Assembly: GCA_002753155.1 (NCBI GenBank)
Contig: PDZW01000012.1
Span: 29,713 to 93,712 of the forward strand
Reading direction: 5' to 3'
DNA from: Alphaproteobacteria bacterium WMHbin7
GTDB taxonomy: Bacteria; Pseudomonadota; Alphaproteobacteria; Rhodospirillales; WMHbin7
DNA: 64,000 bases
Numbering within the stretch: the stretch's first letter is position 1; each line of letters opens with the position of its first letter. A program made the translations under genes and the position numbers. The notes below the pieces were generated by a model that was given only the letters and a program-made list of their open reading frames with translations, searched no databases and had not been told where the DNA came from. This document shows, piece after piece, positions 57,076-64,000 of this stretch.

Positions 57076-58290
57076 TCAGCGCCGCTTCTGTACGCGCTTC
57101 TTCGCTTTATGCTTATCGGGCTTTGCGATCACCGGCTCGGGCAGCATCGAGCGGGTCGAGAAGACAAGGCGCTCGCACAAAACGCGCGACAGATTGAACA
57201 GGACTTTCGAGGCCAGTTCCGGCGAGGACTTCATCAGCTTTTTCAAGAAGGTCTGGGAGACGACCAGAATTTCGCTGTCGGCCAGGGCGACCACATCGGC
57301 CGAGCGCTTCACATCGGCGATAAAAGCAATTTCACCGAAAACTTGGCCCGGCTCCAGCACGGCAATCGGCTTTTTCGTCTTGCCCAGGCGCACTTCCGCC
57401 AGGCCCGAAAGAACCACGAAGAGTTCGCTGCCCACGTCGCCGGTTCTCAAGATGGTGTCGCCGGCGGCACAAGACAGCACCGTGCCGCTTTTCAGCACAT
57501 GGCGCTCTTCCTCTTGCGTCAGGTCTTCGAGCAGAGGCACGCGCCGGCCTGTCGAGGGGCGCAGCTTGTCGGCCAGGAAATGCCAGAAGGCGTCGTCATC
57601 GATCGCCCACTGGCTGGCCTTGGTGGTGGCGGGGAATTTGCGGGCCAGCCACTCAGCGCCCTCAGCGTCCTGCCAGAGCTCTTGACGGTTCTTAAGCTTG
57701 CGCCAGAAGGGTGAGCGCACGGCTTCCAGGTGGCGGGCATCCTTAAGGGCCAGCAATAGCGGTACGCGGTAGCCGACCTCGGGGTCGAGGAAGTTATCGG
57801 TGAAAGGCCGGTATCCCAGATGCTCGTAAAGCTCGATCAAGGCGGGGGCGCAGTGGCAGAAATCATAGACAATGCCGTCTTCCAGCCCGGTTTCGTAGGC
57901 CTTGGCCAGAATTTTATGAAGGGCCGTCGTGCCTCGAAGATCGCGCGCCACCATCAAGCGTGAGGAAAAACTCAAGCGCGAGGGTGGAATGTCATCAAAG
58001 CGGGAAAGGCGGTAGGCGGTCTCGAAAGCCGGAGGCAGACGGGTGCGGTCCGCCCGATTGATGCGCAAGGTGGCGATGACGGCATCGCCCTCCTGGGCGT
58101 AGAGGATCAGGGCGTTTTCGTCCATCTCGTCGGTCAGCCAGCGCCGCTTGTGATCGGCATTGGCCAGGGCGATCTTGCCCATTTCCTCGACATAGACCTG
58201 ATAGCGGAAACGCCAAATCGCCTCCAGCTCATCGGATGAGCGGGCCTGATAAATGCGCAGCGGTGTCTCAGTACTCTCGGCTTCTGCCAT
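57076..58290 (-). CDS. N-acyltransferase (LuxI/FeeM-like GNAT) fused to cyclic-nucleotide-binding domain
   Basis: A 404-aa protein. The N-terminal part (about 10-195) has the acyltransferase features IWRFRYQVYVEEMGK, ALILYAQEGDAVIATLRINRA and LSFSSRLMVARDLRGTTALHKILAKAYETG, similar to FeeM/autoinducer-synthase N-acyltransferases. The C-terminal part (about 265-375) is a CNB domain (LFVVLSGLAEVRL; PGQVFGEIAFIADVKRSADVVA). The last 30 residues are very basic. The ATG at 58290 is preferred over 58368, which precedes a non-conserved stretch. It is divergent from the SIS gene. It may make a nucleotide-controlled acyl product, but no substrate can be read from the sequence. Confidence 0.8.
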   Translation of the reverse strand: MAEAESTETPLRIYQARSSDELEAIWRFRYQVYVEEMGKIALANADHKRRWLTDEMDENALILYAQEGDAVIATLRINRADRTRLPPAFETAYRLSRFDDIPPSRLSFSSRLMVARDLRGTTALHKILAKAYETGLEDGIVYDFCHCAPALIELYEHLGYRPFTDNFLDPEVGYRVPLLLALKDARHLEAVRSPFWRKLKNRQELWQDAEGAEWLARKFPATTKASQWAIDDDAFWHFLADKLRPSTGRRVPLLEDLTQEEERHVLKSGTVLSCAAGDTILRTGDVGSELFVVLSGLAEVRLGKTKKPIAVLEPGQVFGEIAFIADVKRSADVVALADSEILVVSQTFLKKLMKSSPELASKVLFNLSRVLCERLVFSTRSMLPEPVIAKPDKHKAKKRVQKRR

Positions 58291-58390
58291 GGTGCTTCTA
58301 CATTCCCCCAATGGGGTAATCCTAGCAGTTTGATTCGATTTGCGCACCTGCCGGGTTGCGAGGCGCAATCAGTTCGGCTATGACAGGCCT

Positions 58391-59050: not shown

Positions 59051-59767
59051 CTACCTGCGGTCACCAAAGAAGCGCAGGAGCATCAGGAACAGATTCAGGA
59101 AGTCCATATACAGGGTCAGCGCCCCCATTACGGCCTTTTTGCCAGCGATTTCATGGTGATCCGACTCGAGATAGAGTTCCTTGATCTTCTGGGTATCCCA
59201 GGCGGTCAGGCCGGTAAAGATCAGCACGCCTGCTGCGGAAATCACGAATTGCAGCATGCTGGACTGCATGAACAGGTTGACCAGGCTGGCCAGAATCAGG
59301 CCCCACAGCCCCATGATCAGGAAAGAGCCGATGCCCGACAAATCCTTCTTGGTGGTGTAGCCGTACAGGCTCATGCCGGCGAAGGTGGCGGCACAGATAA
59401 AGAAGGTACGGGCGATGCTGGCGCCGGTATAGACCACGAAGACCGGGGCCAGGGCAGCTCCCATCAGGCCCGCATAGAGCCAGAAGGTGGTCTGAACGGC
59501 GGTCAGGCTCATTTTCTGAACGCGAAAGCTTAAGAAAAACACCAGGGCCAGGGGGGCCAGCATGACCACCCACATCAGGCCGCTGCCAAACAGGGCCTGC
59601 ATCAGGGCCTCGTTCGAGGCGACCAGAAGGGCTACAATGCCTGTCAAAGCCAGGCCCGAGCCCATATAATTGTAAACCCGCAGCATATAGGAGCGCAGGC
59701 CCAGGTCGATAGCGACGCCTTGGGCCTCGGCGCCGGTTGCGGTGCGGCGAAGGGTTTCGAAAGCCAT
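59051..59767 (-). CDS. Bax inhibitor-1/YccA family membrane protein
   Basis: A 238-aa protein with seven hydrophobic segments, among them MLRVYNYMGSGLALTGIVALLVA, FFICAATFAGMSLYGYTTKKDLS and LIFTGLTAWDTQKIKELYLE. The family forms pH-dependent calcium leak channels or modulates FtsH (YccA). C-terminal YMDFLNLFLMLLRFFGDRR is typical of the alphaproteobacterial group. Confidence 0.94.
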   Translation of the reverse strand: MAFETLRRTATGAEAQGVAIDLGLRSYMLRVYNYMGSGLALTGIVALLVASNEALMQALFGSGLMWVVMLAPLALVFFLSFRVQKMSLTAVQTTFWLYAGLMGAALAPVFVVYTGASIARTFFICAATFAGMSLYGYTTKKDLSGIGSFLIMGLWGLILASLVNLFMQSSMLQFVISAAGVLIFTGLTAWDTQKIKELYLESDHHEIAGKKAVMGALTLYMDFLNLFLMLLRFFGDRR

Positions 59768-59870
59768 GTCCGGTCCTCTCGTTAAAGGGTTCCGCCCATG
59801 TTATATGTGAGAGGGGGGAGGGAAATCAACCTTCGACCCGGGAAAAGTTAACAGGGGAACGAGAGGCCGG

Positions 59871-61934
59871 ATGGCCAAGGAACCGGAAAAGAAGAAGGAA
59901 GCGCCGCCGCCGCCCAGAAAGGAACCCGTGAAAGGGGCGGGGACGCCGGTCGTTCTGCGCGACCGCTACCAGATTTACCCTGCCACGCCGCTGTTCGATT
60001 TTGATCAACCCAGCGCCACGGCTTTTGCCTGCACGGACAAACGCGATCCCGGACGCTACCTGTTGGCCTATGTCTGCAAGCCCGAACTGCCGCCCCGGGT
60101 CAATGTGCTGCGCACACTAAAGGGCCAGCAACTTGCCGGGGTGATTCCCCTGCTCGACTGGGGAATCGTGGAGTGGCCCCTGGCCGGTCGCCAGTGCCTG
60201 GTCGTCATCTATGCGCGGCCTTTGGGGGGGCGGGTGATGCCGTCACTCGATTCCGAGATCAAGCCCCTTGAAGAGCATGAGCTGGTCAAGAAGATCATGC
60301 CCCAACTGGCGCAATCGCTGAAGGAACTGAGCGAGCGGGGCATTCCGCACCGAGCCATCAGGCCGACCAACCTGTTTTGGATGGACGAGAATTGCGAACA
60401 GATGGTTCTGGGCGATTGCGTGACGGCGCCACCGGCCTACGATCAGCCGGTCCTCTTTGAAAGCATCGAGGTGGGGATGTGCCTGCCCGCCGCCAGGGGC
60501 AGCGGCAGCTATGGCTACGATCTCTATGCGCTGGGTGTTTCGATTCTGATTCTGAAACTGGGACGCGCACCGCTTAAGGGTGTTGAAAGCGAGTCGCTGC
60601 TAAGGGGAAAGATCGCCAAGGGCTCCTATTCCTATTTGGTTGGCGATGAGCGCATGCCGCTCTCCATGATCGAGTTGTTGCGCGGTTTGCTGTGCGACGA
60701 TCCGCACGAACGCTGGTCGGTCAACGATCTCGAGCTTTGGTCAAACGGGCGCCGCCTCTCGCCCTTGCAGCCCAGGCAGGAAAAGCGCGCCGTGCGCGGC
60801 TTCGCCTTCGCCGGAGAAGAATACAATACCTGCCGCGAACTGGCTTTTGCCATGTCCCTGAACTGGGACAAGGCGCATGTCCCCATGATCGACGGCTCGC
60901 TTGAGGTCTGGCTGCGGCGCGGCATCGACAACAAGGAATTGGCAGACGTTGCCACCACTGCCATCAAGAATGCCAGACAGGCCCCGGCGGCGGACGTCAA
61001 GCTTGCAGAGGAGCTGCTTGTCACGCGTGTATTGATGCTGCTCGATCCCCTGGCCCCCATCCGCTACAAGGGCTTCTCGGCTCTGCCGCTGGGTTTCGGT
61101 CCGGCGCTGGCCGTCATCATGGGCACCAAGTCCGATCCCAAGCTCTTTGCGGAATGCCTGCTGCGCGACGTGCCGCACATCTGGTTCGAGACAAGGCCCG
61201 AATATGATCCCGCCAACTCGCAGATCGATAACTTGTTCAAGGACCTGAAAGCCTACATGCAGCAGACGGCGCTGGGTTACGGTCTCGAGCGCCTGCTCTA
61301 CGATCTGAACGAGGCCCTGCCTTGCCAGAGTCCCCTGGTGGCCGATTCCTTCGTGGTTGAAATCGGGGAGTTGCTGCCGGCTCTTGAGCAGACAGCCAAG
61401 CGAATCGATCCGCGCACGATGCCCATGGATCGCCATATCGCCGCCTTCATCGCCTGCCGCTTCGATTTCAATGTCGAGCGTCAGATTACGGCGCTGAACG
61501 CCGGTCATCAGGAACGTCAGATCATCGGCATTCTAAGCCTGCTGGGAACCGTGCAATGGAAGCTGGGGCCTGAAAGCCTGCCCGGCCTGGCCTCGTGGAT
61601 GGGGGCGCATCTGGGGCCCGTGGTCAACGGTTTTCACAGCCGGGCAAAGCGGCGCGAAATGGAAAAGGAGCTGCCGAAGCTGGTGCGCGCGGGCAATCTG
61701 CCGGAATTGTTCTCCTATGTTGAAAATCACGACGAGCGCAGGCGCGACGACGAAGGCTATCTATTGGCCAGGGCGGAATTCGCCGCCTCCAGCCAGGAAG
61801 CCAATGAAATCGAAACAGGCACGAGAAGGCGGACAGATCAGGCCATGCGCTATGGCCATCAGGCGGCTGGCATGATCGCCATGATGCTAGCACTCACCGT
61901 TATCAGCATTCTGCTCCTCATCCGGTTCTTGTAG
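59871..61934 (+). CDS. Predicted tail-anchored pseudokinase
   Basis: A 687-aa protein. After a Lys/Pro-rich N terminus, residues about 30-305 follow a protein kinase fold: GIPHRAIRPTNLFWMDE corresponds to the catalytic loop HRDxKPxN with Asp replaced by Ala and Lys by Arg, and MVLGDCVTAP replaces DFG. SGSYGYDLYALGVSILILKLG matches the APE/D-x-W-alpha-F region, and DDPHERWSVNDLELW the kinase end. Phosphotransfer is therefore unlikely. The middle 350 residues are helical and unrecognised. The last 20 residues are a single membrane helix (AAGMIAMMLALTVISILLLIRFL). It is followed by a small membrane protein 11 bp downstream. Confidence 0.75.
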   Translation: MAKEPEKKKEAPPPPRKEPVKGAGTPVVLRDRYQIYPATPLFDFDQPSATAFACTDKRDPGRYLLAYVCKPELPPRVNVLRTLKGQQLAGVIPLLDWGIVEWPLAGRQCLVVIYARPLGGRVMPSLDSEIKPLEEHELVKKIMPQLAQSLKELSERGIPHRAIRPTNLFWMDENCEQMVLGDCVTAPPAYDQPVLFESIEVGMCLPAARGSGSYGYDLYALGVSILILKLGRAPLKGVESESLLRGKIAKGSYSYLVGDERMPLSMIELLRGLLCDDPHERWSVNDLELWSNGRRLSPLQPRQEKRAVRGFAFAGEEYNTCRELAFAMSLNWDKAHVPMIDGSLEVWLRRGIDNKELADVATTAIKNARQAPAADVKLAEELLVTRVLMLLDPLAPIRYKGFSALPLGFGPALAVIMGTKSDPKLFAECLLRDVPHIWFETRPEYDPANSQIDNLFKDLKAYMQQTALGYGLERLLYDLNEALPCQSPLVADSFVVEIGELLPALEQTAKRIDPRTMPMDRHIAAFIACRFDFNVERQITALNAGHQERQIIGILSLLGTVQWKLGPESLPGLASWMGAHLGPVVNGFHSRAKRREMEKELPKLVRAGNLPELFSYVENHDERRRDDEGYLLARAEFAASSQEANEIETGTRRRTDQAMRYGHQAAGMIAMMLALTVISILLLIRFL

Positions 61935-61945
61935 GGATAAGCGCC

Positions 61946-62455
61946 ATGGCCCAAAAGAAACAGGTGCGCAAGGTGCCTCAAGGGGCAAAGCCTCCCGGAA
62001 AACTTAAAGTCACTCTGGGCCTGCTCATTCTTGGCCCCCCCCTCTTCTTTTTCTTTCTGCCCACTTGGGTGTTTTTGTTCCTGTCCATGCTGCCTTCGGT
62101 GGTCGCCTTCGTGGTCGATCGCACGCCTTATCGCTATGCCTGGGTCAGTGTGGCTGGTCTTAACCTTGCGGGCGTGGCTCCCTACTTGATGAAATTATGG
62201 TTCGAAGGCCATTCGATGAGCACGGCCCTTAAGATGCTGTCCAATCCTTTCGATCTCATCGTCATGATCGGCGCCGCCGGTTTGGGCTGGGTGCTTCATT
62301 TGTCACTGCCGCCTGTGGTCGGAGCCTGGCTGGATGTCACCTCGCAGCGCCGCCTGACGCAATTGCGCGCAACACAGCGCAAACTGCTCGATGAGTGGGG
62401 GGCAGAGGTTGCCCAGCCGGACAGCGAAGAGGCACCGGTTTCCAGACGACGGTAA
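61946..62455 (+). CDS. Small multi-helix membrane protein, unknown
   Basis: A 169-aa protein with a basic N terminus and about three or four membrane segments (LGLLILGPPLFFFFLPTWVFLFLSMLPSVVAFVV; AGLNLAGVAPYLMKLW; LIVMIGAAGLGWVLHLSLPPVVG) and a hydrophilic tail (RRLTQLRATQRKLLDEWG). I do not recognise the family. It lies 11 bp after the pseudokinase gene, so a joint membrane complex is plausible (inference). Confidence 0.75.
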   Translation: MAQKKQVRKVPQGAKPPGKLKVTLGLLILGPPLFFFFLPTWVFLFLSMLPSVVAFVVDRTPYRYAWVSVAGLNLAGVAPYLMKLWFEGHSMSTALKMLSNPFDLIVMIGAAGLGWVLHLSLPPVVGAWLDVTSQRRLTQLRATQRKLLDEWGAEVAQPDSEEAPVSRRR

Positions 62456-62491: not shown

Positions 62492-64000
62492 CTAGGTATT
62501 GCCGGGCGTCGGCAAGCTGAGCTTGAAGGTCGAGCCTTTATTGATCCCGTCGGACTCAACCCAGATTCTTCCGCGATGCCGTTCAACGATGCGCTTGCAG
62601 ATAGCAAGACCAACGCCCGTTCCTGGATAGTCCATAATGGTGTGGAGCCGCTTGAAAATAACAAATATCTGGTCGGCATACTGGGGTTCGATGCCAATGC
62701 CATTATCGGAAATGGCAATCTCGCAAGCTTCATCCTGCTCGCTTGCCCGGATTGAAACAACTGGACGCTGTCCCTTTGAGGAGAACTTGAGGGCATTGCC
62801 GATAATGTTCATGAAAAGATGATGCAACTGAAGCTGGTCTCCCAGGACAATGGGCAGTTTGTCGTGATTGATCTCGGCTCCGCTCTCCAGAAGAGTTGTC
62901 TTCAGATCGGAAAAAACATTCTGAAGAACGACGTTCATATCAACCGGATTGAAGGACTGTGCGTGACTGCTGACCTGTGAGTAGGTCAACAGGTCGAGGA
63001 CCAGAGCATCCATGCGCTTGGCGGCTTGAATAATCATATCCAGGCTTTGCTGGGCGTCTTGGGCAATCGTTCCAACTTGGCGGGGTAATAGCTGGGAAAA
63101 GGCGACGAGGGTGCGAACAGGCTCGCGCAGATCATGCGACGCGACAAAGGCAAAGCGCTCAAGCTCGGTATTGGAATTCGTAAGCGTATCCACCGTTTTC
63201 AAAAGTGTTCGCTCAGCATTGTAGCGGTCGGTTATGTCGCGTGCGATCGAGGCGAACTGAACAACCTCCCCCGAGGAGGCGTGGATTGGACGCGTGTTCC
63301 AGCTCATATGGTGAATTTGGCCATCCTCGGCGATCTGACGATTCTCAAAGGAAAAAACCCTGTCCCTCGAATTTTCCCCAGCCCCCATCGCCTCTGCCGT
63401 TAGCTTTCTGTCGTCTGGGTGGGTAAAATCAAAGGCCGATCTGCCGATGCAGTCCTCCGGCCTCAGGCCGAAAATGATGTTGGAGGCATGATTCACGAAC
63501 AAAAGCGTGCCCTCTCTATTCGTCCAGACGATTAGGTCGGGTGTGCGTTCGACAATGTCTCTGTATTTCCTTTCGCTTTCCGCCAGCAAAACCTCGGCCC
63601 GCCTTCGACGGCGATTGTTGGCCAAAAGGGCGCCGATCAAAGCCGTCTCAATCACGATGAACAGCAGAGCTGTCACAATGTGGAATTTGTAAAGCTCCCA
63701 TAATCCGGGGTCGCGATTGACGAATTGTGTTTCCGGCGGAAGATTTTGGGGAAATCCCCCCCAACGCCTGATTTGACGCCAATCGAATAGGGGCACAGCC
63801 TCGTTTGTGATAACTGTGATCGGCTCGACAATCTGGCGCGCCCCCTTCACAAAGTCGCTTGCCAGCCGGGCAGTTGCTTGACCCAGTCCGGCAACGCTGA
63901 CGACGGAACCGCCAATTCCCCCGTTGCGCAGATTGTAGTCATAGAGTCCGAAAACCGGAGCGTTCGCCGTTTTGGTAAGCATGGCCTCCAATTCATAGGC
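62492..64000 (-). CDS. Sensor histidine kinase with ABC-type sensor domain (5' end beyond window)
   Basis: The frame stays open to the end of the window; about 502 residues are visible. The N-terminal part (FGLYDYNLRNGGIGGSVVSVAGLGQATARLA) looks like the end of an ABC-transporter substrate-binding-like domain (PF04392 type), followed by a membrane helix (IVTALLFIVIETALIGALL), a PAS domain (VERTPDLIVWTNREGTLLFVN), HisKA (FAFVASHDLREPVRTLVAFSQLL) and HATPase (LFMNIIGNALKFSS; DNGIGIEPQYADQIF; GTGVGLAICKRIVERH). No receiver domain or response regulator is seen within the window. Confidence 0.9.
   Translation of the reverse strand, partial: AYELEAMLTKTANAPVFGLYDYNLRNGGIGGSVVSVAGLGQATARLASDFVKGARQIVEPITVITNEAVPLFDWRQIRRWGGFPQNLPPETQFVNRDPGLWELYKFHIVTALLFIVIETALIGALLANNRRRRRAEVLLAESERKYRDIVERTPDLIVWTNREGTLLFVNHASNIIFGLRPEDCIGRSAFDFTHPDDRKLTAEAMGAGENSRDRVFSFENRQIAEDGQIHHMSWNTRPIHASSGEVVQFASIARDITDRYNAERTLLKTVDTLTNSNTELERFAFVASHDLREPVRTLVAFSQLLPRQVGTIAQDAQQSLDMIIQAAKRMDALVLDLLTYSQVSSHAQSFNPVDMNVVLQNVFSDLKTTLLESGAEINHDKLPIVLGDQLQLHHLFMNIIGNALKFSSKGQRPVVSIRASEQDEACEIAISDNGIGIEPQYADQIFVIFKRLHTIMDYPGTGVGLAICKRIVERHRGRIWVESDGINKGSTFKLSLPTPGNT

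Follow-up and report, generated by a model that had tools for sequence, protein, structure and literature searches.

A predicted tail-anchored pseudokinase and its small membrane partner form an apparently undescribed gene pair of Alphaproteobacteria

To our knowledge, bacterial pseudokinases are almost unstudied. Seven bacterial families have been reviewed, out of a 42-family classification (PMC12599244). EssB/YukC, of the Firmicutes type VIIb secretion system, is a membrane-bound pseudokinase with degraded catalytic motifs that serves as a scaffold, and the actinobacterial MviN/MurJ pseudokinase (ActPs3), with the motif Lsidhpsr, is part of a transmembrane protein required for peptidoglycan synthesis (PMC12599244). 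The GLW pseudokinases occur in Proteobacteria and have a transmembrane segment after the kinase fold and hydrophobic residues in place of the beta-3 Lys, and the DLHK pseudokinases are cytosolic, retain the HRD Asp and are joined to helicase-type domains; ActPs1-3 and DYD occur mainly in Actinobacteria or Firmicutes, and CP1 has no transmembrane segments (PMC12599244).

The gene pair described here was found in a 64,000-nucleotide stretch of DNA (the window) and encodes a predicted tail-anchored pseudokinase and a small membrane protein, called here PSK and MEM (Table 1). The GLW family is nearest to PSK in description, whereas PSK differs from the DLHK family in having no HRD Asp, a tail anchor and no helicase domain. 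Both open reading frames lie where an earlier reading, made from the sequence alone (the sequence-only reading), had placed them, 11 nt apart on the + strand. Judged by layout, the pair is its own two-gene transcription unit, with a promoter presumably located in the divergent intergenic region; a sigma-70 consensus was looked for in this short region upstream of PSK, and none was seen. A histidine kinase gene converges on the pair in the window, and a different sensor histidine kinase gene lies directly upstream of PSK-MEM on the chromid of Azospirillum ramasamyi, which is probably a coincidence. In the product of the gene at 57076-58368 (- strand), an N-acyl amino acid synthase domain of the GNAT/FeeM-like kind is fused with a cyclic-nucleotide-binding domain, and this protein may be an autoinducer-type synthase under the control of a cyclic nucleotide.

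Table 1. Features of the PSK-MEM locus, in coordinates of the window.
Feature	Position	Strand	Basis
PSK gene, tail-anchored pseudokinase, 687 aa	59871..61934	+	ORF; homologues in order and class genomes
MEM gene, small membrane protein, 169 aa	61946..62455	+	52-sequence alignment, hydropathy, class-wide co-occurrence
Pseudokinase domain, residues ~27-300	59949..60770	+	PDB profile match, model and Foldseek, conservation over 147 sequences
C-terminal all-alpha domain, residues ~300-620, including two beta hairpins	60768..61730	+	model pLDDT 95, conservation
67-residue helix, residues 620-686, ending in membrane anchor 663-686	61728..61931	+	model, hydropathy
Divergent intergenic region, PSK versus Bax1-I gene	59768..59870	.	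gene layout
Bax1-I family gene, upstream of PSK, divergent	59051-59767	-	gene layout
Sensor histidine kinase gene (PAS-like), convergent with the PSK-MEM pair	62492-63991	-	read from sequence

Kinase fold and active-site residues of PSK

The kinase fold had been recognised in the sequence-only reading, and profile, AlphaFold2 model and Foldseek all agree on it. The Pfam Pkinase profile matched residues 131-286 with an E value of 5.5e-7, slightly short of the family cut-off, and a profile built from 56 sequences of the PSK family matched PDB kinases over residues 63-288 (E 5e-11). The AlphaFold2 model of PSK, with a mean pLDDT of 92, matched WNK3, ULK1, PknB and many other PDB kinases (Foldseek E 1e-8 to 1e-10), and at the level of profile and model the protein-kinase fold is not in doubt. 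A Pfam search gave no match of PSK to the UbiB/ABC1 domain (PF03109).

Conservation was counted over 147 distinct PSK homologues of full or nearly full length, many of which are close relatives and not independent samples. HRA stands in place of HRD, and R164 in place of the catalytic-loop Lys, as had been stated earlier. The residues at position 162, the site of the HRD Asp, include A (89 sequences), S (20), G (9), N (9) and Q (7), and Asp in 0 of the 147, and no intact HRD/DFG pair was found after alignment. The motif at this site is HRA in 81 sequences and HRS in 16, with similar forms such as HRQ also present, and the catalytic-loop motif of the family is HR[A/S]IRPxN. The losses extend to features on which the earlier reading was silent: the beta-3 (VAIK) Lys is present in 1 of 147 homologues, the usual sequence being [FY]AL[IV], and the glycine-rich loop is gone throughout the family, with a sequence of the type P[IL]PxLDxPxAxA at its site (for example, PIPSLDMPNALA and PLPELSTPSASA).

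The loss of DFG, which reads GDC in PSK, had also been claimed, and this holds for the Phe and the Gly but not for the Asp. Alignment to MK2 sets D182 of GDC in register with the DFG Asp, and this position is still acidic in 137 of 147 homologues (D 97, E 40); the catalytic-loop Asn, N167, is retained in 144 of 147. As read from these alignments, both metal-ligand positions survive in PSK, whereas the base Asp, the catalytic-loop Lys and the F and G of DFG do not. Other conserved residues of the kinase domain are D217, R281-W282 and W290, and the arginines R76, R164 and R209. Phosphotransfer by a protein with this set of residues is very unlikely.

The retained N167 and D/E182 place a caveat on a non-catalytic reading, as they would permit PSK to bind a metal or a nucleotide, or to act as an unusual transferase. 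PSK might bind nucleotide and metal, and act either as a nucleotide-dependent switch or as a non-kinase transferase, an activity found in SelO and SidJ. The conservation of both metal-ligand positions and of several arginines speaks in favour of this, and repurposed pseudokinases are known (PMC12599244). However, Ile or Val replaces the beta-3 Lys, the glycine-rich loop is gone, the alphaC helix is very short and the base Asp is missing, which leaves this possibility doubtful.

Helical domain, membrane anchor and relatives of PSK

The sequence-only reading had described about 350 unrecognised residues between the kinase fold and the anchor, and these were equally unrecognised in our Pfam search; for the second half of PSK as a whole, no family was found in Pfam, NCBIfam or PHROGs. 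When residues 300-620 (about 320 residues) were modelled alone, the result was a confident model (pLDDT 95) of helices and two beta hairpins. Comparison of this helical domain with PDB folds gave nothing convincing (best E 0.32, TM <0.2), and comparison with viral structure models gave no fold match at E<0.3. As modelled, the domain is apparently a new fold, i.e., new relative to solved structures. Internal repeats appeared alike by eye and in secondary structure, yet had no profile-profile support and were rejected, as were armadillo matches, which came from one 25-residue helix, no stretch passing alone.

The invariant residues of the helical domain are G469xGxER474, Y477, C485xS487, D520xH522, Q562 and G608, and the near-invariant D626 sits just past its end. 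Conservation of E473, R474, Y477, C485, S487, D520, H522, Q562 and D626 is 96-100% over the 147 sequences. The polar residues of PSK that come closest to invariance thus lie, in many cases, in the helical domain, which may be the catalytic part. It would then be an enzyme of unknown fold, regulated or positioned by the pseudokinase domain, and the near-invariant polar residues, together with a confident model that has no fold match, point in this direction. Against it, the domain has no enzyme match by sequence or by fold, and its start (residues 303-405) recurs as an accessory module in kinases, so that we regard a helical-domain enzyme as unlikely. This and the nucleotide-dependent switch are the leading rivals to a non-catalytic complex of PSK and MEM.

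A single C-terminal membrane helix, as proposed earlier, is predicted at residues 663-686, which form the last 24 residues of the 67-residue helix and have no soluble tail beyond them. Hydropathy gave a hydrophobic segment at the C-terminus in 140 of 147 homologues, and at least three of the anchor-less exceptions resemble frames ending before the true C-terminus.

In a phylum sample, the full-length PSK family was not found outside the Alphaproteobacteria. The nearest relatives beyond the family, L187 and L188, are active-looking Hanks kinases of Proteobacteria outside the class, which have in common with PSK the RWxxxxLxxWxxG end of the kinase and the start of the helical module but, unlike PSK, carry an intact HRDIKPGN. 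Where PSK has residues 405-686, L187 (879 aa) has an apparent Ig-like part and C-terminal membrane segments, and the part that follows the kinase in L187 and L188 falls in no Pfam family. L190, a Rhizobium kinase-DUF4011 protein whose layout suggests that it is a DLHK member, has the RWxxxxLxxW motif in common with PSK and gave a profile match over the kinase and ~100 residues more (E 1e-19, in a small set); against residues 303-405 alone, E was 0.001 in a set including 900 shuffled sequences. The match past the kinase end is supported for L190 and marginal for L187 and L188. Residues 405-686 appear from these comparisons to be private to PSK. The most apt description of PSK is a dead offshoot of that Hanks kinase lineage, with a C-terminal, membrane-linked part of its own.

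Occurrence of active kinases and pairing of PSK with MEM

Many eukaryotic pseudokinases regulate active kinases, and PSK might act likewise on an active Ser/Thr kinase. The window genome has one other, separate kinase-like gene (L217; G000:C43:57404-57970), with the motif HGDLKHDN, which has as neighbours a PP2C-like phosphatase gene and a gene for a repeat protein. However, several near-complete genomes of 1.7-2.2 Mb keep the pair and have no Pfam-detectable canonical Ser/Thr kinase. In a Pfam scan of 16 PSK genomes, G079, G173, G177, G194 and G131 (99-100% complete) had zero Pkinase matches, and in G168, G166 and G069 the sole match besides PSK was a UbiB-like gene, so labelled from its KxGQ and HADLHPGN motifs. 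At least eight genomes, with completeness listed as 93-100%, thus keep PSK and have no detectable Hanks kinase besides UbiB, although the scan missed PSK itself in some genomes, and a very divergent kinase could therefore escape it. Since PSK occurs in genomes in which the Pfam search finds no canonical Hanks kinase, it does not serve just to regulate an active kinase as its partner. Kinase regulation as a general role of PSK is unlikely, indeed largely refuted, and we assign it very little probability.

PSK matches were obtained in 49 of 60 genomes of the order (relatives) sample and in 67 of 190 genomes of the class sample, most of them with full-length homologues, and PSK is single copy in most genomes that carry it. 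The gene pairing is conserved: MEM occurs in 67 of 67 PSK genomes, immediately after PSK in 134 of 142 loci, and the gap between the two genes is <60 nt in most loci. MEM is present in 70 of the 190 class genomes, and 120 have neither gene. The three with MEM and no PSK are the incomplete MAGs G091 and G104 (75% and 84%) and G063, where MEM is a weak fragment. Fisher's exact test of co-occurrence gave a p value of 2.5e-48, the significance of which is overstated, because genomes share ancestry. In all eight loci that have no adjacent MEM, MEM is present elsewhere in the genome; six of these cases, in five Magnetospirillum-type genomes and Roseospira, have a single PSK gene and a single MEM gene, located apart. 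That both genes are kept although linkage has been lost is strong evidence for functional dependence of PSK and MEM.

The two proteins also evolve in a correlated manner. PSK and MEM distances correlated with r 0.83-0.84, and the partial correlation after neighbouring genes had been regressed out was 0.67-0.75, a value matched by 0 of 1000 permutations. For PSK or MEM against single neighbours, the values were 0.05-0.32 (six-gene set, 31 loci); the PSK-purA control partial of 0.58 in a smaller four-gene set is higher because only rpoH was regressed out. A tandem PSK-MEM-PSK-MEM array at L167, whose genome (G191) holds three PSK and three MEM copies, shows that the pair duplicates as a unit.

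The commonest gene order is serC-serA-hisZ-purA-PSK-MEM, opposite rpoH and rluD, with names assigned from the sequences. That the pairing merely reflects the order of genes handed down within a conserved hisZ-purA-PSK-MEM-rpoH-rluD region, an order common to many loci, is barely credible, given that the pair is intact in unrelated contexts (the Azospirillum chromid, the window itself and tandem duplicates), that every sampled PSK genome has MEM, that both genes are kept when apart, and that they covary in rate more strongly than the neighbours do. A functional tie to purA, hisZ, rpoH or rluD was likewise rejected, as the pair leaves the region in several lineages and rate covariation with these genes is weaker. 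A role as a defence system was set aside, the PADLOC matches being just weak ones of the kinase part (mad6, PD-T4-6) and the chromosomal site being stable in most genomes, and so was a phage origin, as a PHROGs search gave no match. PSK loci of Rhodospirillales type were also found in MAGs labelled Marinimicrobia, Asaia and Methylocystaceae (L079-L081, L106, L114), bins that are probably wrongly labelled or contaminated.

MEM had been described earlier as a membrane protein that could not be placed, and it remains unnamed after database searches: comparison with Pfam, NCBIfam, PHROGs and the PDB gave no family, and the scattered weak matches vary between members. An alignment of 52 sequences and hydropathy indicate three to four hydrophobic segments and a basic N-terminus, and the C-terminal part is an amphipathic, charged helix in which W151-G152 (EWG) are invariant. 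G073 and G205 have additional MEM copies unaccompanied by PSK, and in these genomes MEM can act alone. G073 holds three further MEM paralogues, one of which follows a hybrid histidine kinase gene and a response-regulator gene. At L210 (6378-10717), a MEM paralogue without PSK lies directly after a HAMP-HisKA-HATPase-REC-Hpt hybrid kinase and a response regulator, an arrangement which suggests that MEM-like proteins can join other signalling units.

A membrane module and its nearest analogues

We consider it probable, at roughly two chances in three (about 0.68), that PSK and MEM together make up an obligate two-subunit complex of the inner membrane, which functions without phosphotransfer. The membrane-bound module without phosphotransfer that the sequence-only reading had proposed is well supported by sequence, whereas its signalling or scaffold part we can only infer. 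PSK would lie in the cytoplasm, tethered by its C-terminal helix, and its kinase fold would serve as a binding or switch surface; the helical domain and the long helix would couple this surface to MEM in the membrane, probably via the conserved cytoplasmic C-terminal helix of MEM (EWG). The analysis establishes the fold (by model), the loss of catalytic residues across the family, the tail anchor (from sequence), the obligate co-occurrence and the correlated evolution; the physical PSK-MEM complex, the non-catalytic switch role and the docking site we infer. More tentatively, the pair could be an undescribed, class-wide two-subunit inner-membrane machine, built from a pseudokinase, a helical domain of new fold and a dedicated MEM, with a kinase-independent core function that is important and hence kept in streamlined genomes.

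PSK is widespread in the class, mostly single copy, present in reduced genomes without a canonical protein kinase, and has an obligate partner, and this combination makes it a clean system for the study of non-phosphorylating functions of the kinase fold. The finding further brings to light what appears to be a new helical fold, along with two protein families that Pfam and NCBIfam lack. In the Azospirillum ramasamyi record, MEM is annotated as 'hypothetical protein' and PSK as 'serine/threonine protein kinase', and the latter annotation misleads readers. The earlier suggestion that the system is undescribed fits the database results for MEM and the second half of PSK, and no description of the PSK-MEM pair was found in open-access papers; the pair is a real, class-wide module that is apparently undescribed so far.

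Compared by described motif or layout, PSK fits none of the seven reviewed pseudokinase families (PMC12599244). The GLW family has GLW at the HRD site, whereas PSK has HRA, HRS or HRQ, and GLW does not occur in the 15 motifs most common among the 147 homologues. The MviN/MurJ pseudokinase resembles PSK in being tied to membrane machinery; PSK differs from this pseudokinase in retaining HR[A/S]IRPxN. EssB/YukC, like PSK, is a membrane-bound pseudokinase, and the scaffold role belongs to EssB/YukC; unlike EssB, PSK is anchored by its very C-terminal end, has no extracellular part and carries a 320-residue helical domain ahead of the anchor, and no secretion genes were recognised in the recurring PSK neighbourhood (hisZ, purA, rpoH, rluD). 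EssB/YukC and MviN are nevertheless the best functional analogies for PSK, and by this analogy the PSK-MEM pair would work like a membrane pseudokinase scaffold while standing outside every reviewed pseudokinase family.
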